From a virus: 35,473 nucleotides of DNA. This document shows positions 1,411 to 33,577 of the stretch, piece after piece (within the stretch, counting starts at the first letter, position 1; the number at the start of each line of letters is the position of its first letter). Location of the stretch: positions 1 to 35,473 of the IMG/VR virus record IMGVR_UViG_3300030102_004019. The stretch is one strand, 5' to 3'. The translations under genes were made by a program, and so were the position numbers. The notes under the pieces are model-generated. The model was not told the DNA's origin, did not search any database, and was given only the letters and a program-made list of their open reading frames with translations.

Positions 1411-1785
1411 TTATTCAACCTCCAATAAAATAAACAGTTCTAATGTTTCTGTTGTGGAAAATGGGCCAACTCCGTCAAAGTTAGTTCTAAATAGAGAGTA
1501 ATCCACTCTAGGGCTTCTTGAAGCATGGGCTGATAAAGTATTGTCATCAAACAAACCAACTTCACGAATAACCTGTCCTTGAATAGAACTACCTGCTACT
1601 GAAACTTTAATTTCTAATACATTCAAATCGGATTCGGTTTTGACTAATGTAGGAGAAACACTTAATGGAACATCTAAATCAGTTGATATAGGATTCGTTG
1701 AATTACCTCCCAAGCCTATTTTAGCACTAGTAATAATGCTTTTAAGATGAGATACCAGTTGTTTTTTAAGTTCATCAGTTATCAT
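1411..1785 (-). CDS. Small tail fibre / tail-collar-like protein
   Basis: 124 residues. An N-terminal helix (1-22) is followed by a Gly/Thr/Pro-rich segment and then a beta-rich region containing IREVGLFDD at 73-81. The IREVGLF pattern is typical of phage tail-collar fibre and related fibre-base proteins, where a short strand is followed by a D-rich turn. It overlaps the hub gene by four bases (ATGA) with GGAGG in front of the ATG, so it is probably translationally coupled to it. Likely connects the tip to the fibre encoded next. No enzymatic motif seen. Confidence 0.5.
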   Translation of the reverse strand: MITDELKKQLVSHLKSIITSAKIGLGGNSTNPISTDLDVPLSVSPTLVKTESDLNVLEIKVSVAGSSIQGQVIREVGLFDDNTLSAHASRSPRVDYSLFRTNFDGVGPFSTTETLELFILLEVE

Positions 1786-4700: not shown

Positions 4701-7700
4701 GGAATATGGTAAAATATCAGAATTAATATACAAAAAGAGCGTTGCTGCTGAACTGACTTCATGTATAAGTCCTTTCGCATATTCTGTGTTTAAATGAACA
4801 TAGCCTCCATAGCCTCCATAATCATCAGTTGCTTTACTTGCATCATCTATATTAACTCTATGTCTTTTTGCTTCTCCATTTAACAAAGAACCATGTGCGC
4901 TACCAAATCCTCTCATATCAAAATCTCTGTGGTTATCATCACCTGTTCCAGTTTTATCATATTCACTAATATTTACGGAAGAAATATTAGGCTTTATTTT
5001 GTAATTAATAGAATGGTGTTCTAATTTAGAATCATTTGGATAAACTTCTCTTAGTTCCACAATTGATGATTTAATTTGAGTGGGTTTCTCATTAAAGAAA
5101 CCATCTGCTTTAGCAATTGATTTGTAATAGGGCTGTCCATATTTCTTATTAGTGTCTTCGTTACTAACAAAGATATTTTCTATGTTTAATGGAACAGGCC
5201 CACTAGAGGTCAATTTACTATGAGGCAGAGTTAAAATTTTTCCTCCCCAAAGATGCGCTCCATTAATAAAGACTAAATCATGCGTGTCTTTACTTACTTG
5301 GTATATTTTATCTCCAGCAGTATAACTTACATCTCTGTCTAAGAATAACAAAAATTTACCATTTCCTGTTCCTTTTTCAAACCTTTTAACTATAACATAT
5401 CCAGCAAAAACAGCATTATCAGTATCGGCTCCTATAAATACTGGGTCGCCTCTGTTGAAGTTTTTAATGAGATTGCCGTTTGCTTCAATAATATTTGGAT
5501 GTGTAGCATTAAGTCCAACATTTTTATTGGCTTGTTCCGTATTTGTTAAAGTATATCCTTCACTTTGTCCATAGTTTTTAATTTTTCTTCCCAATGTAAT
5601 AGGCAAATACGGTGCTAATTCAATTTGAGTTATGTTGCCTTTTTTTGTAGAAGAAACGATTTCAAAATCAATTAAAGTATTTACAGTATCAAATGTAGAA
5701 GCAGAGGCAGAACCGTGTTCATCATGTAATTTTGCTTGAAACGCTAAATCATTTTTAATATTAGATGGGCTATTAATTGAATGCCCTACTGCTCCAACGC
5801 TCTGATTAGTGCTGGATGAAACTAAGGTGTCTCCCTCAGCACCCGAAGAATAAGTAATTTCGTTCCCTGATGTAAAAACTAAACCTTTATTTGCTGAACC
5901 AGTTAAACTAGCCGCCTTTTTATCAGCAAAATGAGATGAGCCAAGTGCCTTTGAAAGAATATAATTTTTTTCTGTTTCCATATAAACTGCTTCATTATTA
6001 GCGGCAGTTAGAGAAGAAGTAATTGAATATTGTCTTGCAGGCCCACCTCCATGAGAATAAGTGCTAGACGCAGTTACTTGCCCAATATATCCATTAGCCG
6101 TAAATAATTTTGTTCCTACCACGGGAAAATTATCAAAATTAGCACCATCTCCATTATCAGGAATTGTAGTCTGAAATAAAGTAACTCCTAATGGTATAGT
6201 AAATGTAGATGCGGCTCTAATATTTGCTAATTTATTGTATGGACTATTGCTAGAATAAATAATATCTTCACTAAATAATGTATTTAAATTCACAACAGGA
6301 GATAATAACTTATTAAATTTGTCTCTACCTTGAATTTCAACGATAGTCTGCCCTTCTTCTTTTTTGGTTTCAATATTTTCTATCTCCCCGTTAAACCTTT
6401 CAATAAATACTTGATATTGACCTTTAGCAAAACTTAAAGGATTACTGTTATACGAATCACCCGTGAAAGATAAAGTAAGCATACCTGTTGTAGCATTACA
6501 GGCAGTAATACTAGCAAATCTTTCATTATGGTTTAAAGATGTAAAAGACACATACATCTTGCTAAATCGGTTATTTAGCAGATGTGTATTTAGCATAAGT
6601 GTTCCATCAGTTGCGTTGTATGCCCGCCGTTGAAGCGCATCTCCGCTTGTCGGTGTCGTGGACTGTGCGGTAAAAGCGGAGTCATTTACGCCTCTCACAT
6701 AGGGGTGTGTGTCGCTTTGGAAGGTTATCTCTTGGGTTGTTCCTGTTAGGCCAGCAATAGACTGAACAATTAAAATATTATTCCCTAACTTGACTTCATC
6801 TCCTGCATTTAGAACATCACTTAAATTATATTCAGTATTGAAAGAAAACACAGCATTAGATGTTTTTGATGAATAGGTTGCTGCTAAAGAGAAAAACTCG
6901 TTCATATCACCACGATGAATGTTATGTCTTACTCTGTATTCATAAAACTCTTTAATTTTCTTAGGCATGATTCTTCCGTTATCTAAAATAGAAGTTTCGG
7001 AAAAACCACCTTTACCATCAATTGATTCAGTATTTACATGTTCAAAAACATTATATAAAAGATTTGATTTAGTAGGAGAATAATCATAATGTAAATATCT
7101 TTTTGGCCCAGTATATGAGGGAGTTGCTATCAAATCATCGCTAATTCTTCTAGCGTTAGGAAACATAGCATTATAGTCATTAGTATCGGCAGTAATAGTT
7201 GCTCCTTCATTGGTTGTTATTGAATCACCTTGATTTACAGTATTATCTAAATCTCTTAATTTATCTGTTAAAGTAACTCTATGAGAAAATTTACTATAAT
7301 CAATAACTGTTTTACCAAAATCTTGAACAGTTCTAAATACAACAGCATCCGTAGTATCAAATGCAAAACTAGTTCCCGAACCGCTTTTTTGCATACAATA
7401 GTATTTTGTGTTGTGGTCTAATTCGTTTTTCTTATCTAAAAGACTATCAAAGAAATAAAACAAGGGTCTAGCACAGGAAAGATTTTCATCCAATGCTATA
7501 CTATCATTTAGAATACCTCCCGAAAAAGCAACAATGTTAGTATTTGTTTTGATGTGGCCCTTGACAATTAAAAATTTTGTATCTTTTGGAATTTCATTAC
7601 CTAATTTTGGTTCAAACTCAAAAGCATCTCCTTCTAAGTCTTCTGTTATTATTTCAGTTATTCTAGCAAAGTGATGTTTCTTATCATTATCTGAATACAC

Positions 7701-7973
7701 TAATACAAAATAGTTATATGTTGCGAAATCACCAGGATTAAAACGAAAGCCTGTGGTTGTTAAAGCATCATAGCATTTAATTCTAAATCCTTTTGTTGTC
7801 GCTAAATTAGAATATTGTGTTCCGCTAGTATGGTCAGTAGCAGTAAAGGTGCTTGCTCCATCTGTAGCAATAGCAGTATAAATTCTGTGAGAAGAAGTTA
7901 TAGAACTATCAGAGAACTTAGGATTTGTTGGAGACTCTTCTTTAGATAAGCCTGTGGCTAAATCAACAACCAT
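1782..7973 (-). CDS. Giant tail hub / tip protein
   Basis: 2063 residues, the largest gene in the window. Two parts resemble phage baseplate-hub proteins of the gp27/gp44/late-control-D type. One is around 530-580 (VEIQGRDKFNKLL, typical of the first hub barrel). The other is about 1755-1990 (EDLINELLEQEGIEFE, a Y/N-rich middle, then LRPGDIVNVSIP, the usual hub-domain ending). Between them lie about 1150 residues of Ser/Thr/Asn/Asp-rich, beta-type sequence, which I read as an elaborate insertion exposed at the tail tip. The C-terminus is Gly-rich. The ATG at 7973 shares one base with the previous stop (TAATG) and has GAGGAGGTGG before it. Homology is judged by eye; position after the tape measure supports it. 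Confidence 0.65.
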   Translation of the reverse strand: MVVDLATGLSKEESPTNPKFSDSSITSSHRIYTAIATDGASTFTATDHTSGTQYSNLATTKGFRIKCYDALTTTGFRFNPGDFATYNYFVLVYSDNDKKHHFARITEIITEDLEGDAFEFEPKLGNEIPKDTKFLIVKGHIKTNTNIVAFSGGILNDSIALDENLSCARPLFYFFDSLLDKKNELDHNTKYYCMQKSGSGTSFAFDTTDAVVFRTVQDFGKTVIDYSKFSHRVTLTDKLRDLDNTVNQGDSITTNEGATITADTNDYNAMFPNARRISDDLIATPSYTGPKRYLHYDYSPTKSNLLYNVFEHVNTESIDGKGGFSETSILDNGRIMPKKIKEFYEYRVRHNIHRGDMNEFFSLAATYSSKTSNAVFSFNTEYNLSDVLNAGDEVKLGNNILIVQSIAGLTGTTQEITFQSDTHPYVRGVNDSAFTAQSTTPTSGDALQRRAYNATDGTLMLNTHLLNNRFSKMYVSFTSLNHNERFASITACNATTGMLTLSFTGDSYNSNPLSFAKGQYQVFIERFNGEIENIETKKEEGQTIVEIQGRDKFNKLLSPVVNLNTLFSEDIIYSSNSPYNKLANIRAASTFTIPLGVTLFQTTIPDNGDGANFDNFPVVGTKLFTANGYIGQVTASSTYSHGGGPARQYSITSSLTAANNEAVYMETEKNYILSKALGSSHFADKKAASLTGSANKGLVFTSGNEITYSSGAEGDTLVSSSTNQSVGAVGHSINSPSNIKNDLAFQAKLHDEHGSASASTFDTVNTLIDFEIVSSTKKGNITQIELAPYLPITLGRKIKNYGQSEGYTLTNTEQANKNVGLNATHPNIIEANGNLIKNFNRGDPVFIGADTDNAVFAGYVIVKRFEKGTGNGKFLLFLDRDVSYTAGDKIYQVSKDTHDLVFINGAHLWGGKILTLPHSKLTSSGPVPLNIENIFVSNEDTNKKYGQPYYKSIAKADGFFNEKPTQIKSSIVELREVYPNDSKLEHHSINYKIKPNISSVNISEYDKTGTGDDNHRDFDMRGFGSAHGSLLNGEAKRHRVNIDDASKATDDYGGYGGYVHLNTEYAKGLIHEVSSAATLFLYINSDILPYSSLRGDSIMDGNKNIIDYNLLLIENKKTKDSSLTYTNTTAGNQVRLTDDNFQTITIQNNTDISALKRFGIMRLTELCFDIHYNLFNPEKETVPNEEYIRVSQLNGGHFSSAIGTLGSDSLLGTSSSLASEPTKIELATVSTNPANGDRLYDVNYKFLGLVHSYDSGTKTVEFTSEVNLNDDASLTTGNIYKRGTEFTSLTLQGSKDRDTFMSEDGAHIQKGGIVSGNYGSNSGDAWHGFHNSQVAAFASSDAVVFPIRVAYDNSLATPGNTPRILFSRPFYYMLGFADNLYDHNIVVALDTYIIEDGQKHDVDAGATIPIKDGRQYDHNDGASTKRSLTVGKTSNNYIFGEKRRGSSNTKATTSPYEATGIKIGIKPRLWYDASEHDTVSPIGSSSGTLYEYGFNAYAEKLGWMDMIDLTGCYLVSEAGKDIDLGKTVSTGDENTESSRNMNNVVPNDIIYVVSHTVSNSGGLKNHLILDKQLVDESAYRVLKPNETTFYDYSPKEIKLNTLHSKYTKMANEDKMYDINQDIDIVEGTRGKTLTGSTPDITGPNQEAFLSMYVVVDPDKQSSTENHLVMRTDTNFLEIMPEGNYSMYMSDGEDNTKTSLEVIKNVSVDGTASPTPQNTVILNFSKIKEMQGVVSVSETFTLDTAQEIQIDAKRACIGSTVSVGLEGEDLINELLEQEGIEFETTSTDTPMYLAPNYQGLDLFSAIKYVLDKKEMKLVEENNVFKIVPDDSNDYYTNIIIDDSEEYLISEFEKVSTTFDFYNEIIVYGLSHKASRKDIRSIQKRGRKTLEVVDNTLLTQEEVNKQAIRLLLIHSRVNQKLTFTMQNKGINQLRPGDIVNVSIPRENIEMSEYIILEMEHLLTGFIKLQLGRYTKDLSDIFSELLVSSKETKAALRNNDLTTNEISFDFLDSINIKGLKLLVRKREASGGMTLGFGRAFNTSTAKLGFEGGATITITDLIEEDLT

Positions 7974-15576: not shown

Positions 15577-16878
15577 TCAATCCAAGAAATACACAAGGTC
15601 GCCTTTGCCTTTCAAAATATCCATCGCTTCCTTTTTAAGAATATCATATTTTTCTTTAGCCCCGATATTAGCACCCGTTTCAGCAATTAAAACACTTTGG
15701 TCATCCATTCGGATAATTTCTGCTGCAACAAGTTTTGTTGTGGCTTCGTGAATAGCAGATGGAACTCTATTATCACCAGCAATATATGAAACGATAACTG
15801 AATTGTTTGTATGATATGGGTAATCTCTCAAAAAGAAAATACGCCCTTCTTCACCAATTGTCCAATAAGAACCAAGTCTTTTCAAATCTTCCTTATCAGT
15901 AAATACTGTCAAATCACAAACAGAAGGAATCAAATCTTCCGTTGTAAATGTAAGAACATTTGTTCCCGAAGCAGTTGCCGCAGTATCTAAAACGACAGTT
16001 GTTGAATTAGTGATTGATTCAATCGCAACCGTTCCAGTAATGCCTGTTCCCGATACAATCATACCTACGGCTAATTTAGACGAATCAGCAACAGTAAGGG
16101 TCTTTGAAGTGTTTGTCGTCGTGCATGACTGTTTTATGGTCGCCTTGATGGTGCAATCCGACCCATCATCCCCCATCAAGAGGGATGAAATGAAAATCTC
16201 CTTGCCGTTTTCCTTGTTCTTGGCGGCATAGAAAAAGTCAGAAATGGAGAGATTACTAGAAGTGAGGCTTTTTGGAGCAGTTGCGCCTGTAAATTGAGAA
16301 GCACTTGGAAAGGATTCATTCACTAAAGAGATAATTTCTGCAACAGTCGTCTTTGCTCCGAATGTATTACAAAATTCATCATTGGCTAAATCAGTCAAAG
16401 TGTTTTCAGCCACCATTTCAAAACTTACTCCACTATCGGGTAGTTGTAAAATAATAGAATGTAAGTCTCTAAAGTTGTCAAGTAGTCTAATCTTGGCTTG
16501 GGCTGAAGCAATCTCTTCATATTGACTTCCCTGCCAAAGTTGTAGTGAAATAATTTTACGGACTTTCATTTGTTTAAGTTGAATAAATCCAACATAGCCA
16601 CCGTAGTATTGAGCATTTGGCCCTCTCGTAAATTCAAAGTTATGGTATTCATCTTTTGTAATGATAGGTCTAAATGAACGCTTTACTTTATCATCAACAA
16701 TACCTTCTGTTCTTTTGATGATTGCACCAACCTGTGCAGTTGTTGGATAGGTTGTTGCTGAAAAGTCTGGTATTTGAAGAAGGTCTGCTACTTCATTAGC
16801 ATTTGTATAAAAACCTCTACCTTGCGTATAGTCTGGATTGATTTCAGTAAAATCGCTTGGTGAGATTGTTGTTCCCAT
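15577..16878 (-). CDS. Head-tail connector / adaptor protein
   Basis: 433 residues. The N-terminal part (YTNANEVADLLQIPDF, TTAQVGAIIKRTEGIVDDKV) and the C-terminal part (AIHEATTKLVAAEIIRMDD ... ILKKEAMDILKGKG) form the helical pattern of HK97 gp6-like head-tail adaptors. Such proteins usually have 100-200 residues. Here the two halves are separated by beta-rich sequence including a module at about 246-317 (VGMIVSGTGITGTVAI) shared with the tail tube protein. The ATG at 16878 follows the previous stop as TAAG-ATG with AGGTG before it. Confidence 0.65.
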   Translation of the reverse strand: MGTTISPSDFTEINPDYTQGRGFYTNANEVADLLQIPDFSATTYPTTAQVGAIIKRTEGIVDDKVKRSFRPIITKDEYHNFEFTRGPNAQYYGGYVGFIQLKQMKVRKIISLQLWQGSQYEEIASAQAKIRLLDNFRDLHSIILQLPDSGVSFEMVAENTLTDLANDEFCNTFGAKTTVAEIISLVNESFPSASQFTGATAPKSLTSSNLSISDFFYAAKNKENGKEIFISSLLMGDDGSDCTIKATIKQSCTTTNTSKTLTVADSSKLAVGMIVSGTGITGTVAIESITNSTTVVLDTAATASGTNVLTFTTEDLIPSVCDLTVFTDKEDLKRLGSYWTIGEEGRIFFLRDYPYHTNNSVIVSYIAGDNRVPSAIHEATTKLVAAEIIRMDDQSVLIAETGANIGAKEKYDILKKEAMDILKGKGDLVYFLD

Positions 16879-16879
16879 C

Positions 16880-19267
16880 TTAAGCACCTACTTCTCTTCT
16901 TAGAATACTAAGCCTGTCTTTGTATGTATCTAGCATTTCCTCGGCTTCTTGATTTGTATTTCTTCTAATTGGAACAATTCTAAATCTACCTCTTTCTTGC
17001 ATAGTTACTGTAATATAAATATTAGCATTTTCTAAACTTTCTTCAATTTCATCTGTTGTAATGCTAACAAGGTCTTTAGTCGCAGTAACTCCTCTTCTAC
17101 TTGCAGACAATTTACCATAATTTTTAACATCTATGGGTTCGTCTTTTGCTTGAATTTTTTCTCTAAGGTTCTTAGTATATGATTCTTTTTCCTCTTCTGT
17201 CATAGCAATAGATTCATTAATAGGAACAAATAAAGTTCTTTTAGATGTTTCAAACTTTTTATATTGTTTTTCATCAATAACAACCGGATTCTTCTTTTTA
17301 TTTTTTTCATCAAATTCTTGATTTTCTTCTGTTAAATATTCACCATTAGGAACATATATTGTTCTTTTATTGTATGCTTTTCTAGGTAATATTTGAAATT
17401 CTTCTACTTCTTTGAGGTCAGTTATTCTTAAAGGATAACGCCCCAACGGTCTTCTAAAATGTCTGTCTTTTTGTGCTTTAGGTAATTTAGAATATTCTTC
17501 GGAAGAGATTATTTTACCTGTTTTTATGCTAACATATTGAACTGGGCTACCTTTGATTTCAATAAATCTACCTACTGGGTCGCCTTCTCTAATGAATTTA
17601 CTTGGGTCTGATTTTGTTCGGTATGTAATATATTCTTGTTTTAAGTCCCAAATTGGTTTCTTTTCTGTTAAATAATGAGTTGCATCTTCAGGTGCGTCTT
17701 TAAATCTATATTTACCAGTTGAAACTAATTTATTTTTAGGTTTAATTAATTCTTTTCCTTCCCAAACAGTAAAGGTCGGAACATAATTAGTTTTTTCATC
17801 TTCTGAAAGAGACTGATATTTTTCAATAGAAATTTTATTTTTTGTTTTTAGATGCATAAATGCTTCTTTTTCAATTTCTTGCATTTGTCCAACTGATAAC
17901 TCAGTAGTAATATATTTTCCTTTTTTATTAAGTTTGGTCACTTCCACTTCCTTTTTGAATCCTTTTCTATCCATTTGCTCTGAAAGTTTTGATGTTGGTT
18001 TATATGAATTTTTAATAACTCCCGTTGCAGTAAATGTATAAACTTTGAGTGGGTCTTTTTGATACCTATGAACAAGTTTATTTTCAATCTCTCTTACCTT
18101 TTTAACAAATCGCTCTGCTAAATCATTTGTAAAATTCTTATCATCATCTAAAATGAAGGTTTTAGGAGATGCGTCTTTATCTTTATCTGTTAGGTATGAT
18201 ATATCAGTAATAAACTGAATTAGTTTTCCATCGTATTCATATACTCCTGCATCCTTAAAAAAAGGTTCTCTGTCATCATTTCCAATAAGGGGCGAAATAA
18301 TGTTGAGTGCCTGTGGTGATTCCATTTCTCTACTTTCACCAGCGTTCGCAATTACTTTCAAAGCCTTACCGTTTTTGTCTCTTTTAATATCAACAACTCG
18401 GTATCTAATTGTTTTTCCCAAATCTGAATCTAATTCACTTAAAATATCTTTTGGAATTTTAATTGGGAATTTGTGTTTAATAGCAGGTAATACAGTCTTA
18501 TCAGACTTAGACATGAATCTAGGACTTATTTTAGTTGCTTCTAAAATGTGGTTTTCTTTTGCTTGTTTAATTTCTTTTTCAGTTAATACATTATTTAATT
18601 TAAATTGCTCGTCGGGTTGTATTTTATATCTTCTTGAAGTCAAGTAAATGGCTTCTTCTTTCTCTTTTTTTGTTCTATCGTATTCCTCAAGTCTAAAAGA
18701 AAACTCTAAATTATCATAATAATCGTCTTCATTTATTTTATCGGCAATCATTTCTGAGTAATCAAATTCGGGAATATTACTTTCTTCTTGAAAAGTCATT
18801 GAACTGACTCCTGTGAGCCTGTCCATTTTTTTGAGATTAAACAAATCTTCTAACAAAAAATTTTCAAGAAGGCTAATAATCATTTCATCAGGTTTTCTTT
18901 CGTCCTGATAAAATGAAACAGTTTTCTTTTTTCCTTCTTCATCTTCATCATCAGTGTCCTTTTCTTTACGAACCTTCACTAAAGAAGTTGTAAGTTTCTT
19001 ATACGCTTCTGCGTTTTGAGAAAGACCATCCTTAAGTTTTGTTTTTTCAACCCTCTTAAGAATTTTTTTCATGGTATTGTTAAATAATTCTAAATTTTCT
19101 GGTGTCATTGGAGAATCAACATCTCCTTCTCTCGCCTTGTTAAGACGATTAATAAATAAACTTTCGATTGGAGATTGGATATAATTTAACATATCCTTTT
19201 CAATAGACTTTTCATCTGCTTCATTCGGGAAAGTTTTCCTTCCCGCATCCCAATTGAATGTAATCAT
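16880..19267 (-). CDS. Large charged virion-associated protein with repeated Y-x-x-L motif
   Basis: 795 residues from the ATG at 19267 (AAGGTGA four bases before). Very rich in Lys/Glu/Asp; the first 250 residues are mainly helical. The second half has four imperfect repeats of the type I-x-x-E-x-Y-x-x-L-x-x-x-x-[KR], at about 479-497, 587-607, 663-682 and 712-730, each followed by a strand-forming segment. Similar Y-x-x-L repeats occur in structural proteins of marine phages. No catalytic motif found. It lies between the GTPase cluster and the connector; possibly a head-associated fibre or an ejected protein. Function unknown. Confidence 0.6.
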   Translation of the reverse strand: MITFNWDAGRKTFPNEADEKSIEKDMLNYIQSPIESLFINRLNKAREGDVDSPMTPENLELFNNTMKKILKRVEKTKLKDGLSQNAEAYKKLTTSLVKVRKEKDTDDEDEEGKKKTVSFYQDERKPDEMIISLLENFLLEDLFNLKKMDRLTGVSSMTFQEESNIPEFDYSEMIADKINEDDYYDNLEFSFRLEEYDRTKKEKEEAIYLTSRRYKIQPDEQFKLNNVLTEKEIKQAKENHILEATKISPRFMSKSDKTVLPAIKHKFPIKIPKDILSELDSDLGKTIRYRVVDIKRDKNGKALKVIANAGESREMESPQALNIISPLIGNDDREPFFKDAGVYEYDGKLIQFITDISYLTDKDKDASPKTFILDDDKNFTNDLAERFVKKVREIENKLVHRYQKDPLKVYTFTATGVIKNSYKPTSKLSEQMDRKGFKKEVEVTKLNKKGKYITTELSVGQMQEIEKEAFMHLKTKNKISIEKYQSLSEDEKTNYVPTFTVWEGKELIKPKNKLVSTGKYRFKDAPEDATHYLTEKKPIWDLKQEYITYRTKSDPSKFIREGDPVGRFIEIKGSPVQYVSIKTGKIISSEEYSKLPKAQKDRHFRRPLGRYPLRITDLKEVEEFQILPRKAYNKRTIYVPNGEYLTEENQEFDEKNKKKNPVVIDEKQYKKFETSKRTLFVPINESIAMTEEEKESYTKNLREKIQAKDEPIDVKNYGKLSASRRGVTATKDLVSITTDEIEESLENANIYITVTMQERGRFRIVPIRRNTNQEAEEMLDTYKDRLSILRREVGA

Positions 19268-19277
19268 CAATTCACCT

Positions 19278-19925
19278 TCACATCAACCATTTAGCCCAAG
19301 CCGCACCTTTTTGAATTGCCGCACCTAAATGAAGTCCACTTGAAGGAGGCTCATAACTCATTTGACCTTGAGCATCAATCCAATAAGGACGGCCATATCC
19401 GTCTGTTCCGCTTGGAGGGATAGGGTAGCCTGTTCCGTTGTTCATAGCACCCTGCATTTGCTGGTATTGCTGTGTTTGTCCTGTGATACCTGCAATAGCC
19501 ATCCCTGCCGTTGGTTGTTGCATACCGCCTCCGAAGCCTTGAGATTCAAGGTATTGTTGCTTCGCAAGTTTCCTTTGGTTCACGACTTCTGTATTAATGG
19601 CTGATTGTAAAAGGTTGTTTAGGTCTAGTTCAATCTTTTCTTGACTAATTTTATTAAACTCTTGCAAAGCATCATTATTGATGTTCAAGTTAGAACCAAC
19701 AGTAGTAAAAGACAATTTAGCAAGAAGTTGAGAAACAACCCGATTAACTACATCTTCCATCAGTTGCTCAAGAGCCGCCAAAAATTCTTTTCCATGATAT
19801 TGAAAAAATTCTTCAACATGGTTATCCTGTAAAGAAAGTAAGTTATTTACATTCTTAAATTGTTGGTCATTTTGTGCCTGAACTGCATTTAAAACAGTTC
19901 CATTACTTGTTCCTAAAATCCCCAT
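19278..19925 (-). CDS. Gln-rich protein with amphipathic C-terminus
   Basis: 215 residues. The N-terminal 125 are helical (coiled-coil potential at 35-75 and 88-120). Residues about 130-185 are Gly/Gln/Met/Pro-rich and probably disordered (with repeated QQYQQMQG-type stretches). The last 20 residues (LHLGAAIQKGAAWAKWLM) could form a membrane-active amphipathic helix. Strong GGAGG site. No family recognised. Its place next to the membrane/GTPase genes suggests a role with them or in DNA ejection. Confidence 0.55.
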   Translation of the reverse strand: MGILGTSNGTVLNAVQAQNDQQFKNVNNLLSLQDNHVEEFFQYHGKEFLAALEQLMEDVVNRVVSQLLAKLSFTTVGSNLNINNDALQEFNKISQEKIELDLNNLLQSAINTEVVNQRKLAKQQYLESQGFGGGMQQPTAGMAIAGITGQTQQYQQMQGAMNNGTGYPIPPSGTDGYGRPYWIDAQGQMSYEPPSSGLHLGAAIQKGAAWAKWLM

Positions 19926-19927
19926 AT

Positions 19928-20578
19928 CTATTCCTCCTTCTCCTCAATAGTTTCAATTTTGTTATTCATCAAAAGATAATTAATTCTTTCAGTCATTAAA
20001 GTAATTCTAGTCATTAATTCTAGCACTTCTTCATTGGCCTTCTTGGTATCTGCTACGGCGGGTGGGGTTATAAACCAACCTGCTGATGTAAGAGACATAA
20101 CATCTTTTTTGGACAGTGTTTCAAGAGGGCCAGACTTAATTACCTTTGGAACCTTTGGAACAAATCTTTTAAATTCTAAACCATGTTTTTCTGCTAATAC
20201 CTGTTGTTGAAGCATTTCTAATTGCATATACATAGCAGAATGTTTAGGACAGTATGTTCCCATCAACGGTCTTCCTTTCACAACTTTATCTAAAGGCATT
20301 GGTGGTCTTAAATAATCTCCCGATTCCCAAATATGATGAAATCCACAAACAACGCAACGGTCTTTCAAATTAAATTTCTTACCGTATTTAATTCCCAAAA
20401 ACTTCTTAGGTTCTGCTTTTAGAACAGTAGTGAGTTCCTTTAATTGTTTTTTTGGTGTAGCAGTTAAAAATTTATATTCCATTACTGCTCCACTTGCTCT
20501 TGCTTGTTGAATAGGATTCAAGGCAGGATTAAACTGCGGTGGTGCATTTTGTCCAATTAAGTTCGGTTGTTGAAACAT
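19928..20578 (-). CDS. Zinc-binding protein next to the GTPase
   Basis: 216 residues from the ATG at 20578, eight bases after the GTPase stop; a longer reading would run into the GTPase gene. A zinc site is visible: C75-x2-C78, then HH at 81-82, and C110-x2-H113. The first 40 residues are Pro/Gln/Asn-rich. The C-terminus is a helix rich in Met/Leu/Glu (about 180-216). No family recognised; a structural or adaptor protein working with the GTPase is a guess from order. Confidence 0.55.
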   Translation of the reverse strand: MFQQPNLIGQNAPPQFNPALNPIQQARASGAVMEYKFLTATPKKQLKELTTVLKAEPKKFLGIKYGKKFNLKDRCVVCGFHHIWESGDYLRPPMPLDKVVKGRPLMGTYCPKHSAMYMQLEMLQQQVLAEKHGLEFKRFVPKVPKVIKSGPLETLSKKDVMSLTSAGWFITPPAVADTKKANEEVLELMTRITLMTERINYLLMNNKIETIEEKEE

Positions 20579-20583
20579 AATAA

Positions 20584-21252
20584 TCAATAGTCCTTTATCA
20601 TTGTTGTGATTCCTAAATATACCATTTCGGGGTCTGACTTGGCTGATACAATATATTTGAAACACGGTATTCCTTTATCATTTAACTTTCTCATACCGTA
20701 TTTGAATGGTTCAAATATTTCATGTTTATCTATGGATTTTCCTTCTTCTAATGGATATTTTTTTCCCCATATATCATATTTATTTGCCCAAATTCCTACG
20801 GCCATTGGATAATCTGAGTCTCTTTTCTTTTTTCCGTTTGACCAAGTATTTGAAATAATTGTATCAACTAAAAATTTCCATGCTAATTGATGGTCTAAGT
20901 TTGCTTCACTGTCTAAATGTCGGTGGTCAATCATAAATATAACATACTTAACTCTTCTATTTTGCATATCTTTTTCCCATTCTTTCCAGTAAATTGCTTC
21001 TCCACCAATATCTGCACTTCTTATTGTATGTGAATTTCCATCAATTTTAATATTCTTTCTTGATGCTCTATGTCTTCCTACTGTTCTTTGGTTTATTTGT
21101 GGAACTTCTCCTCTTGTTCTTAACTGATGGCTTAGTGTTGTTTTGCCGACCATTGTTGCTCCATAGACTCCGAAATTAATTGCGTGAACCTTTTTGTAGA
21201 ATCCTATAATTGCTTCACCGACTAGAATAGCAAAGCCTGTCATTAATGACAT
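20584..21252 (-). CDS. Membrane-anchored Arf/Ras-like small GTPase
   Basis: 222 residues. All guanine-nucleotide motifs can be seen: G1 GATMVGKT (31-38), a candidate G2 Thr (T57), G3 DIGG (81-84), G4 NKYD (157-160) and G5 SAK (203-205). The DxGG form is that of Arf and SRP-receptor-beta-type GTPases. The residue after DIGG is Glu85 instead of the usual catalytic Gln, which suggests slow or partner-assisted hydrolysis. Residues 1-20 form a hydrophobic helix ending KK, so it is probably membrane-attached, with the nucleotide domain in the cytoplasm (or inside the virion). The ATG at 21252 shares one base with the stop of the preceding membrane-protein gene (TAATG). A GTPase of this kind among head-tail genes is highly unusual. 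Confidence 0.85.
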   Translation of the reverse strand: MSLMTGFAILVGEAIIGFYKKVHAINFGVYGATMVGKTTLSHQLRTRGEVPQINQRTVGRHRASRKNIKIDGNSHTIRSADIGGEAIYWKEWEKDMQNRRVKYVIFMIDHRHLDSEANLDHQLAWKFLVDTIISNTWSNGKKKRDSDYPMAVGIWANKYDIWGKKYPLEEGKSIDKHEIFEPFKYGMRKLNDKGIPCFKYIVSAKSDPEMVYLGITTMIKDY

Positions 21253-21470
21253 TAATGCCCCCACCCGTTTAACAAAGTGTCAAACAGAAAACCCATGATG
21301 TTAATATCAAAAACACCAAGAATGTTTCCAACAAGGAAACCTGCGAGTCCCGCACAAGAACCCCAAAACCACGCTCGCATTTTCAAGAAGAAAATGTCAG
21401 CAGAATGCGCTCTTTGTTGATTATAAGCGTAGTCCGAATCGGAAAAGCCCATTAAGTCGCCAAAGACCAT
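21252..21470 (-). CDS. Small membrane protein coupled to the GTPase gene
   Basis: 72 residues. A soluble, Asp/Tyr-rich N-terminus (1-30) is followed by a hydrophobic segment (about 33-53, with Gly-rich small-xxx-small spacing) and a second hydrophobic stretch (about 55-68). Strong GAGGTGGTTAA-ATG site; overlaps the GTPase start by one base. Likely inserted in the host membrane or in a virion-associated membrane patch. No family recognised. Confidence 0.65.
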   Translation of the reverse strand: MVFGDLMGFSDSDYAYNQQRAHSADIFFLKMRAWFWGSCAGLAGFLVGNILGVFDINIMGFLFDTLLNGWGH

Positions 21471-21479
21471 TTAACCACC

Positions 21480-21866
21480 TCATTGTAGTGTGGCTAAAAA
21501 TTCACTTCCGATAGTATTCTCTTCTGTTTCAGGTTGCGTATAAAAAGGAACATTACCACCAAATTGTCTTGCGCTTTCTCGCATCTTTTGGCGTTGTTGT
21601 TCATCTCTAGCCTTTCTTTCCCAATAAGCAGCAATTTTCCTATCAAGTAGCCACATCTCAATTTTATCATTGAGAGCCAAGTCAAACAACGCTTTAACAA
21701 CCATGATTGCTCCAATTGTTCCTAAACCAAATAAAAACGAATGAGCAATTGGCCCGTATGGGAAAGTTAATCCAATCATAGCATAGACGAAAACATTTGC
21801 TCCACTTAAAGTCCCGACAAATAAAATTGTCATAACTAATCTGGTATCTGCATTTAAAGCCGCCAT
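21480..21866 (-). CDS. Two-span membrane protein
   Basis: 128 residues with two predicted membrane spans (about 10-34 and 42-64). An amphipathic, Arg/Lys/Glu-rich helix follows (about 68-100, with RKARDEQQRQKMRE), then a disordered acidic tail. GAGGTGATTTT-ATG start. Holin-like in size and shape, but its position among head genes and next to the GTPase argues as well for a structural or membrane-remodelling role. A same-length reading in another frame (21494-21715) is a shadow. Confidence 0.65.
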   Translation of the reverse strand: MAALNADTRLVMTILFVGTLSGANVFVYAMIGLTFPYGPIAHSFLFGLGTIGAIMVVKALFDLALNDKIEMWLLDRKIAAYWERKARDEQQRQKMRESARQFGGNVPFYTQPETEENTIGSEFLATLQ

Positions 21867-21875
21867 AAAATCACC

Positions 21876-22199
21876 TCAAGCAAATTCAACGGAAACTGCC
21901 GCACCTTCTCCTGTTCCAGAAGAAATACTCAAATATAGTCCATTTACAGCCAAAACACCATGCATGTCAAATTCAAACAGAGGTGGATTTGCGCCAGTAG
22001 TTGCGGGGTCTGCGGGGTCAGGTCTAGCCAAAATCATTCTCGCTAATTCTAAACCGCTTGCCGCAGAAGCATTATCAAAGACCTTAATTGTTGTTGGCTT
22101 GCTTCCTGTCAAAACAGCATGAATTGAAACCAACTTACATTGTCCAGCATTAATTGCTGTTGATGATGTTTTTACTCCGCTACTTCTACAACTCGCCAT
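21876..22199 (-). CDS. Small beta-type virion protein
   Basis: 107 residues, Ala/Ser/Gly-rich, with the pattern of a small beta-sandwich: an N-terminal strand block (CKLVSIHAVLTG), a middle TIKVFDNASAASGLEL, then FEFDMHGVLAVNGLYLSIS. Short proteins with a KVFDN ... GLYL pattern are common among marine phage structural genes. First gene after the hairpin at 22218-22249. Candidate capsid decoration protein or fibre base; not proven. Confidence 0.5.
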   Translation of the reverse strand: MASCRSSGVKTSSTAINAGQCKLVSIHAVLTGSKPTTIKVFDNASAASGLELARMILARPDPADPATTGANPPLFEFDMHGVLAVNGLYLSISSGTGEGAAVSVEFA

Positions 22200-22217
22200 G
22201 ATAACACCTCGTTCAAT

Positions 22218-22249
22218 ACACCGTTATGGGTTGCCCCATATAACGGTGT
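22218..22249 (-). other. Strong hairpin between head and membrane/GTPase gene groups
   Basis: The 13 bases ACACCGTTATGGG (22218-22230) pair with CCCATATAACGGTGT (22235-22249) apart from a 2-base bulge; the loop is four bases. It starts three bases after the stop at 22253-22255. No T-run follows on either strand, so it is not a classic terminator. It may be an RNA-processing or mRNA-stabilising element, or a partial terminator lowering expression of downstream genes relative to the capsid genes. Confidence 0.7.
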
Positions 22250-22252
22250 CGC

Positions 22253-22579
22253 TCACTCTTCGGTTAAAGAAGACTTTTTGGCTTTAGTAGCCGTTGTTTT
22301 CTTCTTTGTTCCTTTCTTTGGAAGAAACCTTGTAGCCAACTCATTATGGGTTTTAATTTCTTGGCCGATTTCAAGAGAGATAGCAGGGAAAAATTCAGGG
22401 TCAATAGCCATCATTTCCTTTCTATCATCTTCTTGAAATGTAATTTCAAGGTTAGAATCGCTTAAACGAAGAAGGGCCGCCATTACTGGTAATTCAATAG
22501 GAGACTCCCTAGTGAGTTTTTGGCCGTGAATAATAAATGGTTGAAAACCACCACTATCCGAAACTTCAACTTTAACCAA
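22253..22579 (-). CDS. Small head-region protein with lysine-rich tail
   Basis: 108 residues from a TTG at 22579. The reading frame stays open to 22741 but that part overlaps the upstream gene. The GAGGTG six bases before the TTG fixes the start. A compact beta/helix N-terminal part (VKVEVSDSGGFQPFIIHGQK) leads to a disordered Lys/Thr-rich C-terminus (KKGTKKKTTATKAKK). Follows the capsid and decoration genes, so probably a minor head protein; the basic tail could touch DNA. Family unknown. Confidence 0.55.
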   Translation of the reverse strand: MVKVEVSDSGGFQPFIIHGQKLTRESPIELPVMAALLRLSDSNLEITFQEDDRKEMMAIDPEFFPAISLEIGQEIKTHNELATRFLPKKGTKKKTTATKAKKSSLTEE

Positions 22580-22589
22580 AGGAAACACC

Positions 22590-22955
22590 TCAAAGGTTGC
22601 CGAAAACACGCAATCTAAATTGCATTCCCGAATGTGTTCCGCCATCAGCAACTTCCGCAGGAGTAGCCTGTAAAGCATCAATGATGAACAGCGTAAATGA
22701 ATCTGCGCTAGTATAACTTCCATCTGTTCCAGAGATAGCAAAGGTTGGATAAAACTTTACATTACTTGTTCCTGTATGAGAAACAGCAGTAATAGTTGAT
22801 AATCCAAAATTGCTAGCACTAAGAACAACACCCGAAGCATCATAGGTTGAAACATCAAGGAGAGCATCAACCATGTATTCATCGCCATTTACTCTCGGTT
22901 TTGTATAACCTTTGTGGTCTGGTAAGAGACTCACAGTAAAAACTTCTTCTGTCAT
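22590..22955 (-). CDS. Candidate capsid decoration protein
   Basis: 121 residues, beta-rich, Ser/Thr/Gly-rich, immediately downstream of the major capsid gene with a strong GAGGTGATTTAG-ATG site. Strand pattern across about 35-100, with FRLRVFGNL at the end. Genes in this position usually encode head decoration or stabilising proteins. No family recognised from sequence. Confidence 0.5.
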   Translation of the reverse strand: MTEEVFTVSLLPDHKGYTKPRVNGDEYMVDALLDVSTYDASGVVLSASNFGLSTITAVSHTGTSNVKFYPTFAISGTDGSYTSADSFTLFIIDALQATPAEVADGGTHSGMQFRLRVFGNL

Positions 22956-22965
22956 CTAAATCACC

Positions 22966-24315
22966 TCAAAGAAGGTTAGTAATCTTTCCTTGGCCCTTGA
23001 AGTAAGAACAGCCCATTTCACCAATTGTTCGGTAAAGAGCCTTGTTTCCAAGACGGCCAACACCGAATGGGTTTCCATTGGAAATACCATCCTCAAAGTA
23101 TTGAGTTGGCTTCATAACCGACAACCAAAGGTGGTCAGTGTCAAGAAGCAACATATCGCTGATACAGGAAGTATTTGCACCCGTTGAAGGCATAGCGGCA
23201 ACAGGAATCAAAGGAATGTCGTAGTAAGTAGAAACACGGAAACCGACTTCTGCACCCTTAACACCACGAACACCGTTCACAGTTGGAACAATTTCCTTTC
23301 TGTCCATGAATCGCTCTTGAGCCTGAAGCAAGTCAGAAAGCGTTTGAAGCGTATCATATCCAGTAAGAATGACCTTTGGCGAACCACCAGCAATTCTCAA
23401 ATCACGGAGCATGGAGTTAAGCACAGTCAAAGTAAATTGACGAGCATTTCCACTAGCATAGCCAGCACCGAAAGAAACAGCAGAATCAAGGAAAGAAGCG
23501 GCATCACGGTTTGTTCCGTAAATATGGCTAATTTCATCAGTAGTTGCCGAAGAAATCAAAACGGTTCCAGAAGCCATAGCATCCAATTCTGCCTTAGAAG
23601 AAATAATCTTGTAAAGAGAAGTGTAGTTGCGCTCAATGGTAGCAATTTGGTTGGTAGCATTCAAATCGTAGTTTTCAAGAGGCATAACGAGCATAGCATT
23701 CTGCACTTCAGAATGGTGCTTACCCATGTCTTCTCTCAATTGAGCACGAATATCACCGATACCATCATCAATAGCCGCCATTTCCATAGCAAGTTCCGAG
23801 AACTCAAATTGATGAGCAATAATCTTAGGACTCGTAAAGAGTTGGGTGTAAGTTGGAGCAATTGAAGCCAAACCGTCTTGATGGGTGTCTAAAGCCGCAT
23901 TTTCGGGAACACCACCGATAAGGTCAGGACGCAAAGCCGCCGCACCAATGTTAGCCGCACTACCAGCGATATTAACGCCAGTCAAATCAAGGAAATTACC
24001 GCTACCACCAGCAGGTCGCTCCTTTAGGACTCTCCAACCGCTTGAAGTGTAAGGTCGCTTTGAAATAACCGAAAGTGCGTTGCATTCACGGTTTAACATA
24101 GACCAGACCTTTTGGCCGTAGATTTTGTTATAAAGAGCAGTAGTGTCGGAAATAGCACTAAAGCCATTTGCGGCGGTTCCTGCAACATCATGTCCAGCAT
24201 GAATACCAGCAACACCACCTGCTTGCTTAAGCAATTGGTTGTTAAGGCCAGTATGACCAGTCAATCCGTAAGTCTGTCTTTCTAAGTCTGCAATTGTGTT
24301 AATATATCCTGTCAT
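22966..24315 (-). CDS. Major capsid protein, HK97 fold
   Basis: 449 residues, directly after the protease-scaffold gene. A short N-arm (1-30) is followed by a flexible Gly/Ala-rich part (30-60). The central region fits the HK97 fold: long helix around 170-205 (FEFSELAMEMAAIDDGIGDI), A-domain strands near the C-terminus (VGFRVSTYYDIPLIPVAAM, DMLLLDTDHLWLSVMKPTQYFE). Codons here are visibly richer in C/G than in neighbouring genes, as expected for the most highly translated gene. Strong GAGGTGATTTACC-ATG site. Confidence 0.85.
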   Translation of the reverse strand: MTGYINTIADLERQTYGLTGHTGLNNQLLKQAGGVAGIHAGHDVAGTAANGFSAISDTTALYNKIYGQKVWSMLNRECNALSVISKRPYTSSGWRVLKERPAGGSGNFLDLTGVNIAGSAANIGAAALRPDLIGGVPENAALDTHQDGLASIAPTYTQLFTSPKIIAHQFEFSELAMEMAAIDDGIGDIRAQLREDMGKHHSEVQNAMLVMPLENYDLNATNQIATIERNYTSLYKIISSKAELDAMASGTVLISSATTDEISHIYGTNRDAASFLDSAVSFGAGYASGNARQFTLTVLNSMLRDLRIAGGSPKVILTGYDTLQTLSDLLQAQERFMDRKEIVPTVNGVRGVKGAEVGFRVSTYYDIPLIPVAAMPSTGANTSCISDMLLLDTDHLWLSVMKPTQYFEDGISNGNPFGVGRLGNKALYRTIGEMGCSYFKGQGKITNLL

Positions 24316-24326
24316 GGTAAATCACC

Positions 24327-25550
24327 TCAGTTAAATCCTCCAGCCATTTTATGAATATCTGACCAATCCATCTCGGCCAATTCATCCATAGTTGGGAGTT
24401 TAATTTGGGCTTCTTCTTGAGCCTTAATAATTTGGTTCTTCTCAGCCGTCAAAGACTTGCGAAGAGAAGCAAATTCATTCTTAAGAGAAGCAATTTCGGA
24501 AGCCGCATCATATTGCGACTTTGCGAGAATGTTCTCTCTTGAAGAGGTTTCAGCCTTGAAGCGAGCCTCAAACTGCTTTTGGAGGTTGTCATAAGCCAAC
24601 TTCTCCAACTGTTCTTGACGGAAAGCATCGTAAGCCTTCTCAATGTTAGCAACACTCAAATCAAGAGTTTTTAACTCATTGTTGTTAAATGCCTTAACAA
24701 CAGGAAGGTCGCTGGCTCTTGGCTTGCCGTTGTCAATAACGATTCTATCGGCAGGTTCACCGATTTCAACGCCAGCACCATCAAGGGTAGAAAGAAGGGC
24801 TTTTGCCTCTTCATCCCGATACATCTTTTCATCCTCATCCATGAGTTTTTCGGACATCATTTTTTCATCTTCGTCCTCCATTTTCTCATCCATGAGTTTT
24901 TCAGACATCATCTTTTCATCCTCATCTTCCATCTTTTCGTCCATTTCTTCCTTACGCAGAGTATTAACCTCCGCCATAAGTGCGTCCAGTTCTTCTAAAG
25001 CCTTTTCAATTTTGCTCATATTTTTCACCTTTTTTTCTTGTTTAAGAATATCAAACTTTGCTTCGGGATTAATTCCTTTTTCACAGATAGTAACTTCATG
25101 TAATTCAAGTTTGCTAATTTCGTTAAATTCACCTAATTCTGAATTAGTCTTCTTTGTTTTTTGTAAAGCCTGTCCTCCAATACTAAATGACCTAAGCGAA
25201 CCCTTTCTTATTCCTCTATTAATTTCCTTTGCTTTTTCAATATCATCTCTTAATTTGATAACTACAAAGAACCCGACATCATCTACTTCAGTTTTGAATA
25301 ATCTTCCTGATTTATCTCGGTATGATTCTACTACTTCTCCGACTTGAACATTTGAATGGTTTGTCATTACATTTCTAAACTTTGGGTTCTCCATGTATTT
25401 ACTAACCGCTTCTTTAAGGGCTTTGAGTGTGATTAAATCATTTTGTTTATCAACGATTTCAATGCTTGCATATCCTCCAATCATTAAATCGTCTTGACTT
25501 TTGAGAATCCTAAAATCGTGAGTGTTGTTCCTCATCACCGCAGAAGTCAT
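24327..25550 (-). CDS. Prohead protease fused to scaffolding domain
   Basis: 407 residues from the ATG at 25550 (a TTG at 25559 is the alternative). Residues 1-170 match HK97-type prohead serine proteases: catalytic His at about 65 (TNHSNVQVGEV), Ser at about 123 (SFSIGG), and the ELHEVTICEKGINPEAKF block. From about 178 it becomes a scaffold: acidic Met/Glu/Asp-rich repeats (203-236), a long coiled-coil (about 300-385) and a C-terminal DWSDIHKMAGGFN. The scaffold probably guides capsid assembly and is then cleaved by the protease. An internal ribosome binding site before Met178 suggests separate scaffold production, as with lambda C/Nu3. Lies directly upstream of the capsid gene. Confidence 0.8.
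   Translation of the reverse strand: MTSAVMRNNTHDFRILKSQDDLMIGGYASIEIVDKQNDLITLKALKEAVSKYMENPKFRNVMTNHSNVQVGEVVESYRDKSGRLFKTEVDDVGFFVVIKLRDDIEKAKEINRGIRKGSLRSFSIGGQALQKTKKTNSELGEFNEISKLELHEVTICEKGINPEAKFDILKQEKKVKNMSKIEKALEELDALMAEVNTLRKEEMDEKMEDEDEKMMSEKLMDEKMEDEDEKMMSEKLMDEDEKMYRDEEAKALLSTLDGAGVEIGEPADRIVIDNGKPRASDLPVVKAFNNNELKTLDLSVANIEKAYDAFRQEQLEKLAYDNLQKQFEARFKAETSSRENILAKSQYDAASEIASLKNEFASLRKSLTAEKNQIIKAQEEAQIKLPTMDELAEMDWSDIHKMAGGFN
24843..24944 (-). repeat. Two tandem 51-bp repeats in the scaffold
   Basis: Residues 203-219 and 220-236 of the protease-scaffold are the same 17-residue unit, MDEKMEDEDEKMMSEKL, followed by a partial third copy (MDEDEKM). The two DNA copies differ at 8 of 51 positions. 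All eight are third-codon, synonymous transitions. Confidence 0.9.
25017..25030 (-). promoter_or_regulatory. Internal ribosome binding site and start for free scaffold
   Basis: Inside the protease-scaffold gene the minus strand reads AAGGTGAAAAAT-ATG, with AGGTG six bases before an in-frame ATG at 25019-25017. This is as good as the sites of the flanking genes and lies exactly at the protease/scaffold border. It would give a 230-residue scaffold (24327-25019) without the protease. Confidence 0.6.
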
Positions 25551-25579
25551 TCTTCTCAACCCTTCTTATTCAATTGCAG

Positions 25580-31939: not shown

Positions 31940-33577
31940 TTAACCGACTCTCCTTTCAGTTCTTCTGTCAGTATTTTGATTTCCCGCATCAACGGGTAAT
32001 CCAGTAAGTCTCTTATCCGGCCCTACGCTCATGGAGGCTTTATTTCTTGTGGCTGGCGGGTTTTCCTGTGGCTTTCCTCCACCCTGTAAAGCCTGTTCTT
32101 GCATTTGTCCCAACTGTGAAGCATCAATGTTTGTTCCAGCATAAGGGTCATTTTTTGCATCACCTTCGCCTTCTTGCGGCTTCGGTTCTTCGGGTTCGGG
32201 CTTCTTAAAGGTAAATTGTCCATCTTCGTCCATATCAACTTCAAATCCTAGATTTTTTGTTGATGCAGCAATATTGACTTCAATCTCACGCTTACGAAGA
32301 ACAGCAATTTCATCTTCTTCTTCACTTGGAGGTAGTTTAAGTTTCCAATCTGTAATACCAAATTGTTTTACAAGGAAGGGGAAAACATAATTGTTATACA
32401 CAGTTTGTGCCTTTTGAACTGCTCTATTCGTAACTAAAATTTGCATACCTTCATTGTTTAATCCACCGCTTGTAGTATTATCAGCCATGAAGACTTTGCT
32501 TACACCATAAAAAGCAGAAATTCTATCTCTTAAATCATCTTTGACAGAAACATAATCCATTTCCTTTAGACTATCCATGAACTTAATCCATTCAACTCCA
32601 CCCTTTCCTCCTTCTGCTTCAATTCCCATAACAGGAATAAAGTGTGGGTCTGCTTCCATCTTTTCTTTTACAGACCGCCAAAAGGCTCTCATTGAATCCA
32701 TATTTCTCGTTTGAACGGCTAAAAGTCCTCTCGGCATACGACTCTTGGTGTAAGAAGAATTGACATAGTTTTCCATAGCAATAAGAGTCATCATGGAATT
32801 AAACAAAGTAATAACTGGTGATTGTCCATAAAGACGAGAAGGACTATATTTACTGAAGTGCAAAACTTCTCCCTTCAAAAAGTATTGGTCTGTTCCATTT
32901 GCTCTATTAACATAGTGAACAGGATAAACACAACCACCACAGGTTCCACAACGCTCATGTGGTTCAGTAGTGATAAAATCTCTATGATTAACACAGGTGA
33001 ATCCTTTAGTTCCTCTTTGTCCTAATTCATCGGAATAAATAAACATAGTTACTGGGTCGCCACGATAAAGTTCTTTAATGCGATGCATTCTAATTTTTTG
33101 ATTACCATCAATAAAGTATTCTTTAACAAGAACAATATAAGCATCATCCATAATATTTAAATCATCTTCCAATTCTTGAAGAACATCAATAAATAATTGT
33201 TCTGACTTATTTACATATCCTTCAATAAATTTTTCAGCATATTCTAATTGCTTTGCATCAGGAATATCTAATTCCAAATGACCACAACGAGCGCATTCTT
33301 GAACAGGTCTTTGGTGTTCCTTTCCGCAGTTCTTACATTTTGCTTCGTATGCCTTTTCCCAAACATAACCTCTTCGGAAAACTTCCTGCTTTAATTGAGT
33401 AATGCAAGTTCTCCCAATAACTGATTGATTAATGATGTTATACAACAAAGGCCCAGTCATCATATGACGGTTTTCTCTTTCTTGAATGCCCATGTTATAT
33501 ACGGTTCTATCCGCAGGTTTAGGAGTTTGTCTCCTAAACAGGTTAGTAAAACTGAATCTTCTTTTTTCATCAGCCAT
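31940..33577 (-). CDS. Portal protein with two zinc-ribbon-like insertions
   Basis: 545 residues. Portal features: N-terminal RQTPKPADR region, an expected D-I-x-x-D-A-Y-I-V-L wing strand (about 141-150), GEVLHFSKYSPSRLYGQSPV (236-255), and the helical stem with GVSKVFMADNTTSGGLNNEG near 360. It would form the dodecameric DNA gate at one capsid vertex. Unusually, C81-x2-C84/C95-x2-C98 and C195-x2-H198/C210-x2-C213 (plus C216) look like two zinc ribbons inside the wing. The last 100 residues are Pro/Glu/Gln-rich and disordered. Start ATG with GGGGGTG upstream. Confidence 0.85.
   Translation of the reverse strand: MADEKRRFSFTNLFRRQTPKPADRTVYNMGIQERENRHMMTGPLLYNIINQSVIGRTCITQLKQEVFRRGYVWEKAYEAKCKNCGKEHQRPVQECARCGHLELDIPDAKQLEYAEKFIEGYVNKSEQLFIDVLQELEDDLNIMDDAYIVLVKEYFIDGNQKIRMHRIKELYRGDPVTMFIYSDELGQRGTKGFTCVNHRDFITTEPHERCGTCGGCVYPVHYVNRANGTDQYFLKGEVLHFSKYSPSRLYGQSPVITLFNSMMTLIAMENYVNSSYTKSRMPRGLLAVQTRNMDSMRAFWRSVKEKMEADPHFIPVMGIEAEGGKGGVEWIKFMDSLKEMDYVSVKDDLRDRISAFYGVSKVFMADNTTSGGLNNEGMQILVTNRAVQKAQTVYNNYVFPFLVKQFGITDWKLKLPPSEEEDEIAVLRKREIEVNIAASTKNLGFEVDMDEDGQFTFKKPEPEEPKPQEGEGDAKNDPYAGTNIDASQLGQMQEQALQGGGKPQENPPATRNKASMSVGPDKRLTGLPVDAGNQNTDRRTERRVG

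Follow-up and report, generated by a model that had tools for sequence, protein, structure and literature searches.

A predicted small GTPase encoded with two membrane proteins in the head-gene operon of magroviruses

Described GTPase systems and the magrovirus locus

The archaeal small GTPase ArvA (OapA, HVO_3014) drives vesicle budding in Haloferax (PMC10927574), and in T4 the prohead begins on the inner membrane with gp20 and gp40 (PMC9958956). The order Magrovirales is made up of marine viruses of 90-100 kb, linked to Poseidoniales, whose major capsid protein (MCP) and portal are related to those of Druskaviridae, and which carry a chaperonin and a DNA polymerase B in two pieces (PMC10768690). 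Here we describe a 35-kb magrovirus fragment (IMG/VR record IMGVR_UViG_3300030102_004019; "the window" is the whole stretch of 35,473 nucleotides analysed) in which a gene for a predicted small GTPase lies among the head genes, next to genes for two membrane proteins, TM128 and TM72. Magroviruses are a very common group of tailed viruses for which, to our knowledge, there is no isolate.

The best functional precedent is ArvA, which resembles the magrovirus protein in being a euryarchaeal small GTPase with a hydrophobic N-terminal helix, encoded in an operon with two more genes. The partners differ, however, being DUF2073 (ArvB) and a Zn-ribbon protein (ArvC) in the one case and two membrane proteins in the other. 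Neither ArvB (PF09846) nor ArvC (PF09845) gave a match over the cut-off in any of 24 near-complete magrovirus genomes, with the Haloferax controls matching, and identity with the ArvA operon is ruled out on these partner genes; three weak ArvC-type matches (13-17 bits, cut-off 23) either contain stops or extend over a short stretch only, and we regard them as Zn motifs arisen by chance. The roadblock partner MglB (PF03259) is absent from the same number of genomes (0/24), which rules out identity with MglAB. In the T4 gp40/gp20 system, a tailed virus builds its head with a step at the membrane and the help of a viral protein, but no GTPase takes part. The Rab/Ras homologues of giant viruses (Edafosvirus, Pithovirus, Klosneuvirus and others) are also virus-encoded Ras-fold GTPases, but they belong to viruses of eukaryotes and lie outside any tailed-virus head operon.

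The source virus has the make-up of Magrovirales. Among 50,697 phage records, only Druskaviridae (HVTV-1, HCTV) and methanogen-associated viruses come close to its capsid and portal proteins, at 21-29% identity, and the near-complete relatives of the window are contigs of 84-99 kb. DNA polymerase B is found in all 18 magrovirus-like records sampled (split into two parts in 16 of these), and 14 of the 18 have chaperonin genes. Because the group is assigned as Magrovirales, the predicted host is a member of the Poseidoniales, which are ocean archaea.

The minus strand of the window carries a single structural operon that runs from the portal gene through the capsid gene to large neck and tail genes (Table 1). 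The initial annotation had placed the GTPase group between capsid and connector genes, and this is where it lies, with the MCP, protease and portal genes on one flank and g15.5 on the other; in HVTV-1 the gp125 gene is located between the capsid and tail genes. A Shine-Dalgarno-like sequence, GAGGTG, stands ahead of g22.5, of the decoration-type gene and of both TM128 and TM72. Immediately ahead of the decoration-type gene there is a bulged hairpin, ACACCGTTATATGGG-GCAA-CCCATAACGGTGT (window 22209-22250; z -2.6), which has no T-run behind it and whose conservation among relatives is not obvious; it is a possible RNA processing or termination signal. A sigma-70 promoter scan of the window was set aside because the virus is archaeal. 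The 2063-aa ORF in the tail region (window 1782-7973) has no PHROG match.

Table 1. Features of the structural operon in the window
Feature	Position	Strand	Basis or remark
Portal protein	31940..33577	-	phrog_18178, 1e-63
Prohead protease (Peptidase_S78)	24327..25559	-	profile matches
Major capsid protein, HK97/SU10 type	22966..24315	-	SU10_MCP above Pfam cut-off; phrog_24667, 2e-21
g22.5, small protein immediately after the major capsid gene	22590..22955	-	
g22.2, fast-evolving small protein after the capsid gene	22253..22741	-	overlaps g22.5; likely to start in fact close to 22576
107-aa protein, probable capsid decoration protein	21876..22199	-	inferred from place and size; 114/114 loci
TM128, two-span hairpin with charged C-terminal tail	21480..21866	-	114/114 loci
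TM72, 66-72 aa, one span	21252..21470	-	114/114 loci
Small GTPase, 222 aa	20584..21252	-	motifs, profiles, model
g19.9, zinc-type protein directly downstream of the GTPase; candidate partner	19928..20605	-	114/114 loci
g19.2, conserved protein of the same operon	19278..19925	-	114/114 loci
g15.5, HVTV-1 gp125 homologue (connector position between capsid and tail genes)	15577..16887	-	E 2.3e-10

Conservation and distribution of the GTPase gene

Scans of IMG/VR with successive queries gave 187, 234, 377 and 391 related stretches. In loci of divergent clades (114/114), the genes for MCP, the decoration-type protein, TM128, TM72, the GTPase, g19.9 and g19.2 are all present, and the order TM128-TM72-GTPase-zinc protein is kept in every one. 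We also selected records by the portal protein, so that the GTPase itself was not the selector, and in this sample the GTPase is found as a single copy in all 15 near-complete genomes (at least 84 kb). It is present in 27 of 40 portal-selected records and in 20 of the 22 large ones. The two misses among the large records are contigs that stop short of the region, and where magrovirus-like records gave no hit, their contigs likewise finish before or near it. The GTPase is a core magrovirus gene, and the three-gene block first seen near the capsid gene of the window is a lasting feature of its relatives.

The median identity to the window over the 114 loci is 0.63 for the GTPase, 0.62 for MCP, 0.56 for g19.2, 0.51 for TM128, 0.48 for g19.9 and 0.41 for TM72, which makes the GTPase as conserved as the major capsid protein and places it above all other genes of the block. 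Selection on the GTPase is purifying, with a median dN/dS of about 0.18 (Nei-Gojobori; a crude value, as synonymous sites are near saturation), and a chance origin is excluded because there are several hundred viral relatives under such selection. At one homologous locus (L175, 6001-6669), the GTPase frame is split (6001-6375 and 6448-6669), which may be a sequencing error or a pseudogene. The contig IMGVR_UViG_3300021958_000021 (184733 bases) contains two different magrovirus genomes, a tandem or a chimeric assembly, with two portals and two GTPases 91.8 kb apart.

Beyond magroviruses, tblastn with two family members found no relative in the 50,697 phage records, a collection that may omit records very near the window, and tblastn with human Arf1 found none there either; no relative turned up in PHROGs. 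The gene is absent from three complete Druskaviridae (HVTV-1, HCTV-5 and HCTV-1) as well as from vir335 and a halovirus fragment. In the examined stretches of these three Druskaviridae, profiles of TM128, TM72, g19.9 and g19.2 found no match. On these grounds we rejected a GTPase module shared with Druskaviridae. HVTV-1 gp124 (KC117377.1, 18406-18738), a protein of 110 aa with a single strong hydrophobic span (KD19 2.04), is encoded between decoration-type genes and gp125, the position of TM128 and TM72, and has no sequence similarity to them; this lineage may long have had a membrane protein here, and the GTPase may be a magrovirus addition.

For a cellular source, two short patterns searched against 84,980 genomes gave no close host homologue and one match, a virus contig binned as Maricaulis. 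This contig (NZMJ01000024.1), filed under an alphaproteobacterial genome, is a magrovirus fragment and an instance of MAG contamination. Among predicted viral proteins (BFVD), the best 50 structural matches are all from giant viruses of eukaryotes. A comparative paper on 224 jumbo phages does not mention GTPases (PMC7824862), nor does the magrovirus literature searched, whose coverage is incomplete and in which an earlier bare annotation is possible. Within the collections searched, the GTPase is confined to magroviruses, and the initial statement that tailed viruses have no known GTPase in such a place agrees with what we found in the other tailed viruses searched. Proteins of this class are known, but a tailed virus that has one as a core head-operon gene with membrane partners is, as far as checked, new.

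Motifs, fold and family of the GTPase

The GTPase ORF encodes 222 aa from its ATG, or 226 aa if translation begins at a GTG further upstream (21264). The complete set of small-GTPase motifs first read in the window copy is indeed there: G1 GVYGATMVGKTT (P-loop, residues 28-39), RTVG in switch I (56-59), DIGGE as G3 (81-85), WANKYD as G4 (NKYD at 157-160) and SAK as G5 (203-205), in a G domain of Ras type that starts directly behind a hydrophobic N-terminal helix (residues 2-22). None of the 229 extracted homologues has lost G1, DxGG, NKxD or SAK, the extraction rule having included the G1 pattern, and NKxD and SAK are present in each of 91 non-redundant representatives. The Glu reported in place of Gln after DIGG is right for the window copy but is not family-wide, the residue being Glu in 70 and Gln in 21 of the 91 representatives. 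In Ras, the Q61E change leaves intrinsic hydrolysis retained or raised. Since the canonical Gln also occurs within the family, Glu reads as an accepted substitute, with no sign of a dead enzyme; from these motifs the protein is predicted to bind and hydrolyse GTP, and Glu or Gln could serve at the catalytic position.

An AlphaFold model built with the 91-sequence alignment has a pLDDT of 77.5 and a pTM of 0.77, with the P-loop and switch I among its least certain parts (62-66); an earlier model from 15 near-identical sequences (pLDDT 50) was discarded as evidence. Foldseek against the PDB gives 1482 matches at E<=0.001, among the matches listed all small GTPases or G-alpha, in the order Rab33 (E 4e-9), Rab1b, Gz, KRas and Rab7, with Arl8b lower down. 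Normalised to the query, the TM-scores are modest, at 0.42-0.54; part of the reason is probably the additional N-terminal helix together with an insertion ahead of NKxD, and the subfamily is therefore not readable from structure. Across 23 diverse members, Pfam matches are to MMR_HSR1 (23), SRPRB (20, counted at E<=1 and below the cut-off where scores are shown), Roc (18), Ras (14) and Arf (8). The window copy scores below every Pfam gathering score, and two relatives pass, for Ras (23.4 vs 21.6 bits) and MMR_HSR1 (22.5 vs 21.9). HHalign of the family, against three comparison sequences entered by hand, gives a probability of 90.5% for KRas (E 1.3e-6, spanning G1-G4), 14% for Arf1 and 2% for adenylate kinase, the negative control. 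By motifs and predicted fold, we assign the protein to the small GTPases of the Ras superfamily, with the intact nucleotide-pocket motifs that the initial reading called for.

The same annotation had called the protein Arf-like, and this label is not supported. Matches to Arf, SRPRB and Rab-type families do exist, but Arf is not the best of them: the Pfam hits are spread, with the best Arf match among members at 6e-5 and the best SRPRB match at 1e-4, HHalign favours KRas and Foldseek puts Rab/Ras first. Membership in the Arf family was rejected because Ras, SRPRB and MMR_HSR1 profiles score equally or better and residue 2 is Ser, not the Gly of Arf myristoylation. With Arf/Arl and SRPRB the protein has in common DxGG, a T-x-G switch I and a predicted N-terminal membrane helix, but it differs in lacking Gly2 and in the alternation of Glu and Gln after DxGG; measured against WDxGGQ, DxGG is always there and a W before the D is not. 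Its layout, a membrane-type N-terminal segment (KD19 1.62 at residue 1) followed by the G domain, looks SRPRB-like. With Ras/Rab it shares the G1-G5 motifs and the fold, but these have DTAGQ where it has DxGG, lack its insert before NKxD and are only about 15-18% identical to it, and it is a viral head-operon gene.

Membrane partners and proposed role

Three membrane features of the locus, all of them named at the outset, hold up. The first 19 residues of the GTPase have a mean Kyte-Doolittle value of 1.62, and residues 2-22 are modelled as a helix just ahead of beta-1, in which Glu13 hardly varies and residues 20-21 are basic; the hydrophobic helix is retained in the members examined. Judged from hydropathy only, it looks more like a short SRPRB-like membrane anchor than a classical Arf amphipathic helix, than which it is more hydrophobic. 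The TM72 stop overlaps the GTPase start as TAATG in the window, and the two are 0-10 nt apart in most relatives. For TM128, a 128-aa ORF, two spans are predicted in most relatives (strongest span in the window copy KD19 1.90), and its conserved segments are DTRLVMTILFVG and LND-IE-LL-R-I--YW. TM72 is a 72-aa ORF (66 aa from its second Met) with the conserved N-terminal motif AYDLQRAHSAD-WFL-R-WFWG, of which RAHSAD is strongly conserved. We infer that TM128 and TM72 act as membrane receptor or effector of the GTPase.

These data suggest a switched membrane step previously unknown in tailed viruses. The head-gene operon would make capsid proteins, GTPase, TM128 and TM72 together, late in infection, and the N-terminal helix would tie the GTPase to the host cytoplasmic membrane. 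GTP binding would then switch the recruitment of heads, or the bending or opening of the membrane. Such a step could organise head assembly on the membrane, as the T4 portal does without a GTPase, and/or the membrane could be bent or opened so that virions leave. The GTPase would work like ArvA, an analogy drawn at the level of function. Since sequence data do not separate assembly from exit, we give a membrane-anchored, GTP-switched late module for either or both one combined estimate, an even chance. The absence of the ArvB, ArvC and roadblock families counts against it. Druskaviridae, a sister family, build related virions without the GTPase, TM128 and TM72, and the step is therefore not needed for the capsid type as such.

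The GTPase could instead act on the host as a decoy or as a dominant switch, capturing or blocking one of its membrane-GTPase pathways, for example in vesiculation or cell-surface trafficking. It resembles cellular membrane GTPases, and Ras/Rab homologues exist in giant eukaryotic viruses, but genes for host takeover or exclusion are usually early, variable and scattered, whereas the magrovirus gene is always there, occurs once per genome and keeps its place within the head operon, and the two-pattern search found no close host homologue, although distant ones may exist; we regard this explanation as unlikely. We know of no tailed virus in which DNA ejection requires a nucleotide switch, and this speaks against the GTPase and/or the membrane proteins being virion components in head or neck that act when DNA crosses the host membrane. 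The placement of the genes, with decoration-type genes on one side and connector genes on the other, and a conservation equal to that of structural genes fit such a role, but a place in the late operon also suits assembly factors, and we consider this role rather improbable. That MMR_HSR1 is the commonest Pfam match (23/23), and that HVTV-1 gp124 occurs at the same position without a GTPase, would agree with a soluble assembly or translation GTPase, chaperone-like in head or neck assembly, beside independent membrane proteins (for example holin-like release proteins); the retained N-terminal helix and a TM128-TM72-GTPase trio never separated in 114 loci make this quite improbable. A non-functional P-loop protein or chance motif, to which the sub-threshold Pfam scores of the window copy might point, is scarcely credible when two relatives exceed the gathering scores, the motifs are all invariant and the fold model agrees.

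The capsid-linked core GTPase and its fixed membrane partners form a defined three-gene target, parallel to the recently described vesiculation GTPase ArvA. They would bring the Ras superfamily, mainly known from giant viruses of eukaryotes and from membrane traffic in cells, into a tailed-virus head operon. More tentatively, and less likely than not, magroviruses might possess their own GTP-switched membrane-remodelling machine (GTPase, TM128 and TM72, possibly with g19.9 as regulator) for assembly on and exit through the archaeal membrane, without conventional holin/endolysin lysis. If true, no earlier example would exist in tailed viruses of morphogenesis or egress driven by a small GTPase.

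The zinc protein g19.9 is a candidate regulator of the GTPase. It follows the GTPase in all loci and has a near-invariant CxxC...CxxH zinc-type centre (DRCVVCG..W.. RP..P...KG.P..GTYC.KH), which recalls the idea of the Zn-ribbon protein ArvC as a GTPase regulator, with no ArvC-family match found. In some clades, unrelated extra ORFs lie between the GTPase and g19.9 (loci L313, 2168-2743, and L322, 2166-2904), and this junction is the one variable point of the block that we saw.
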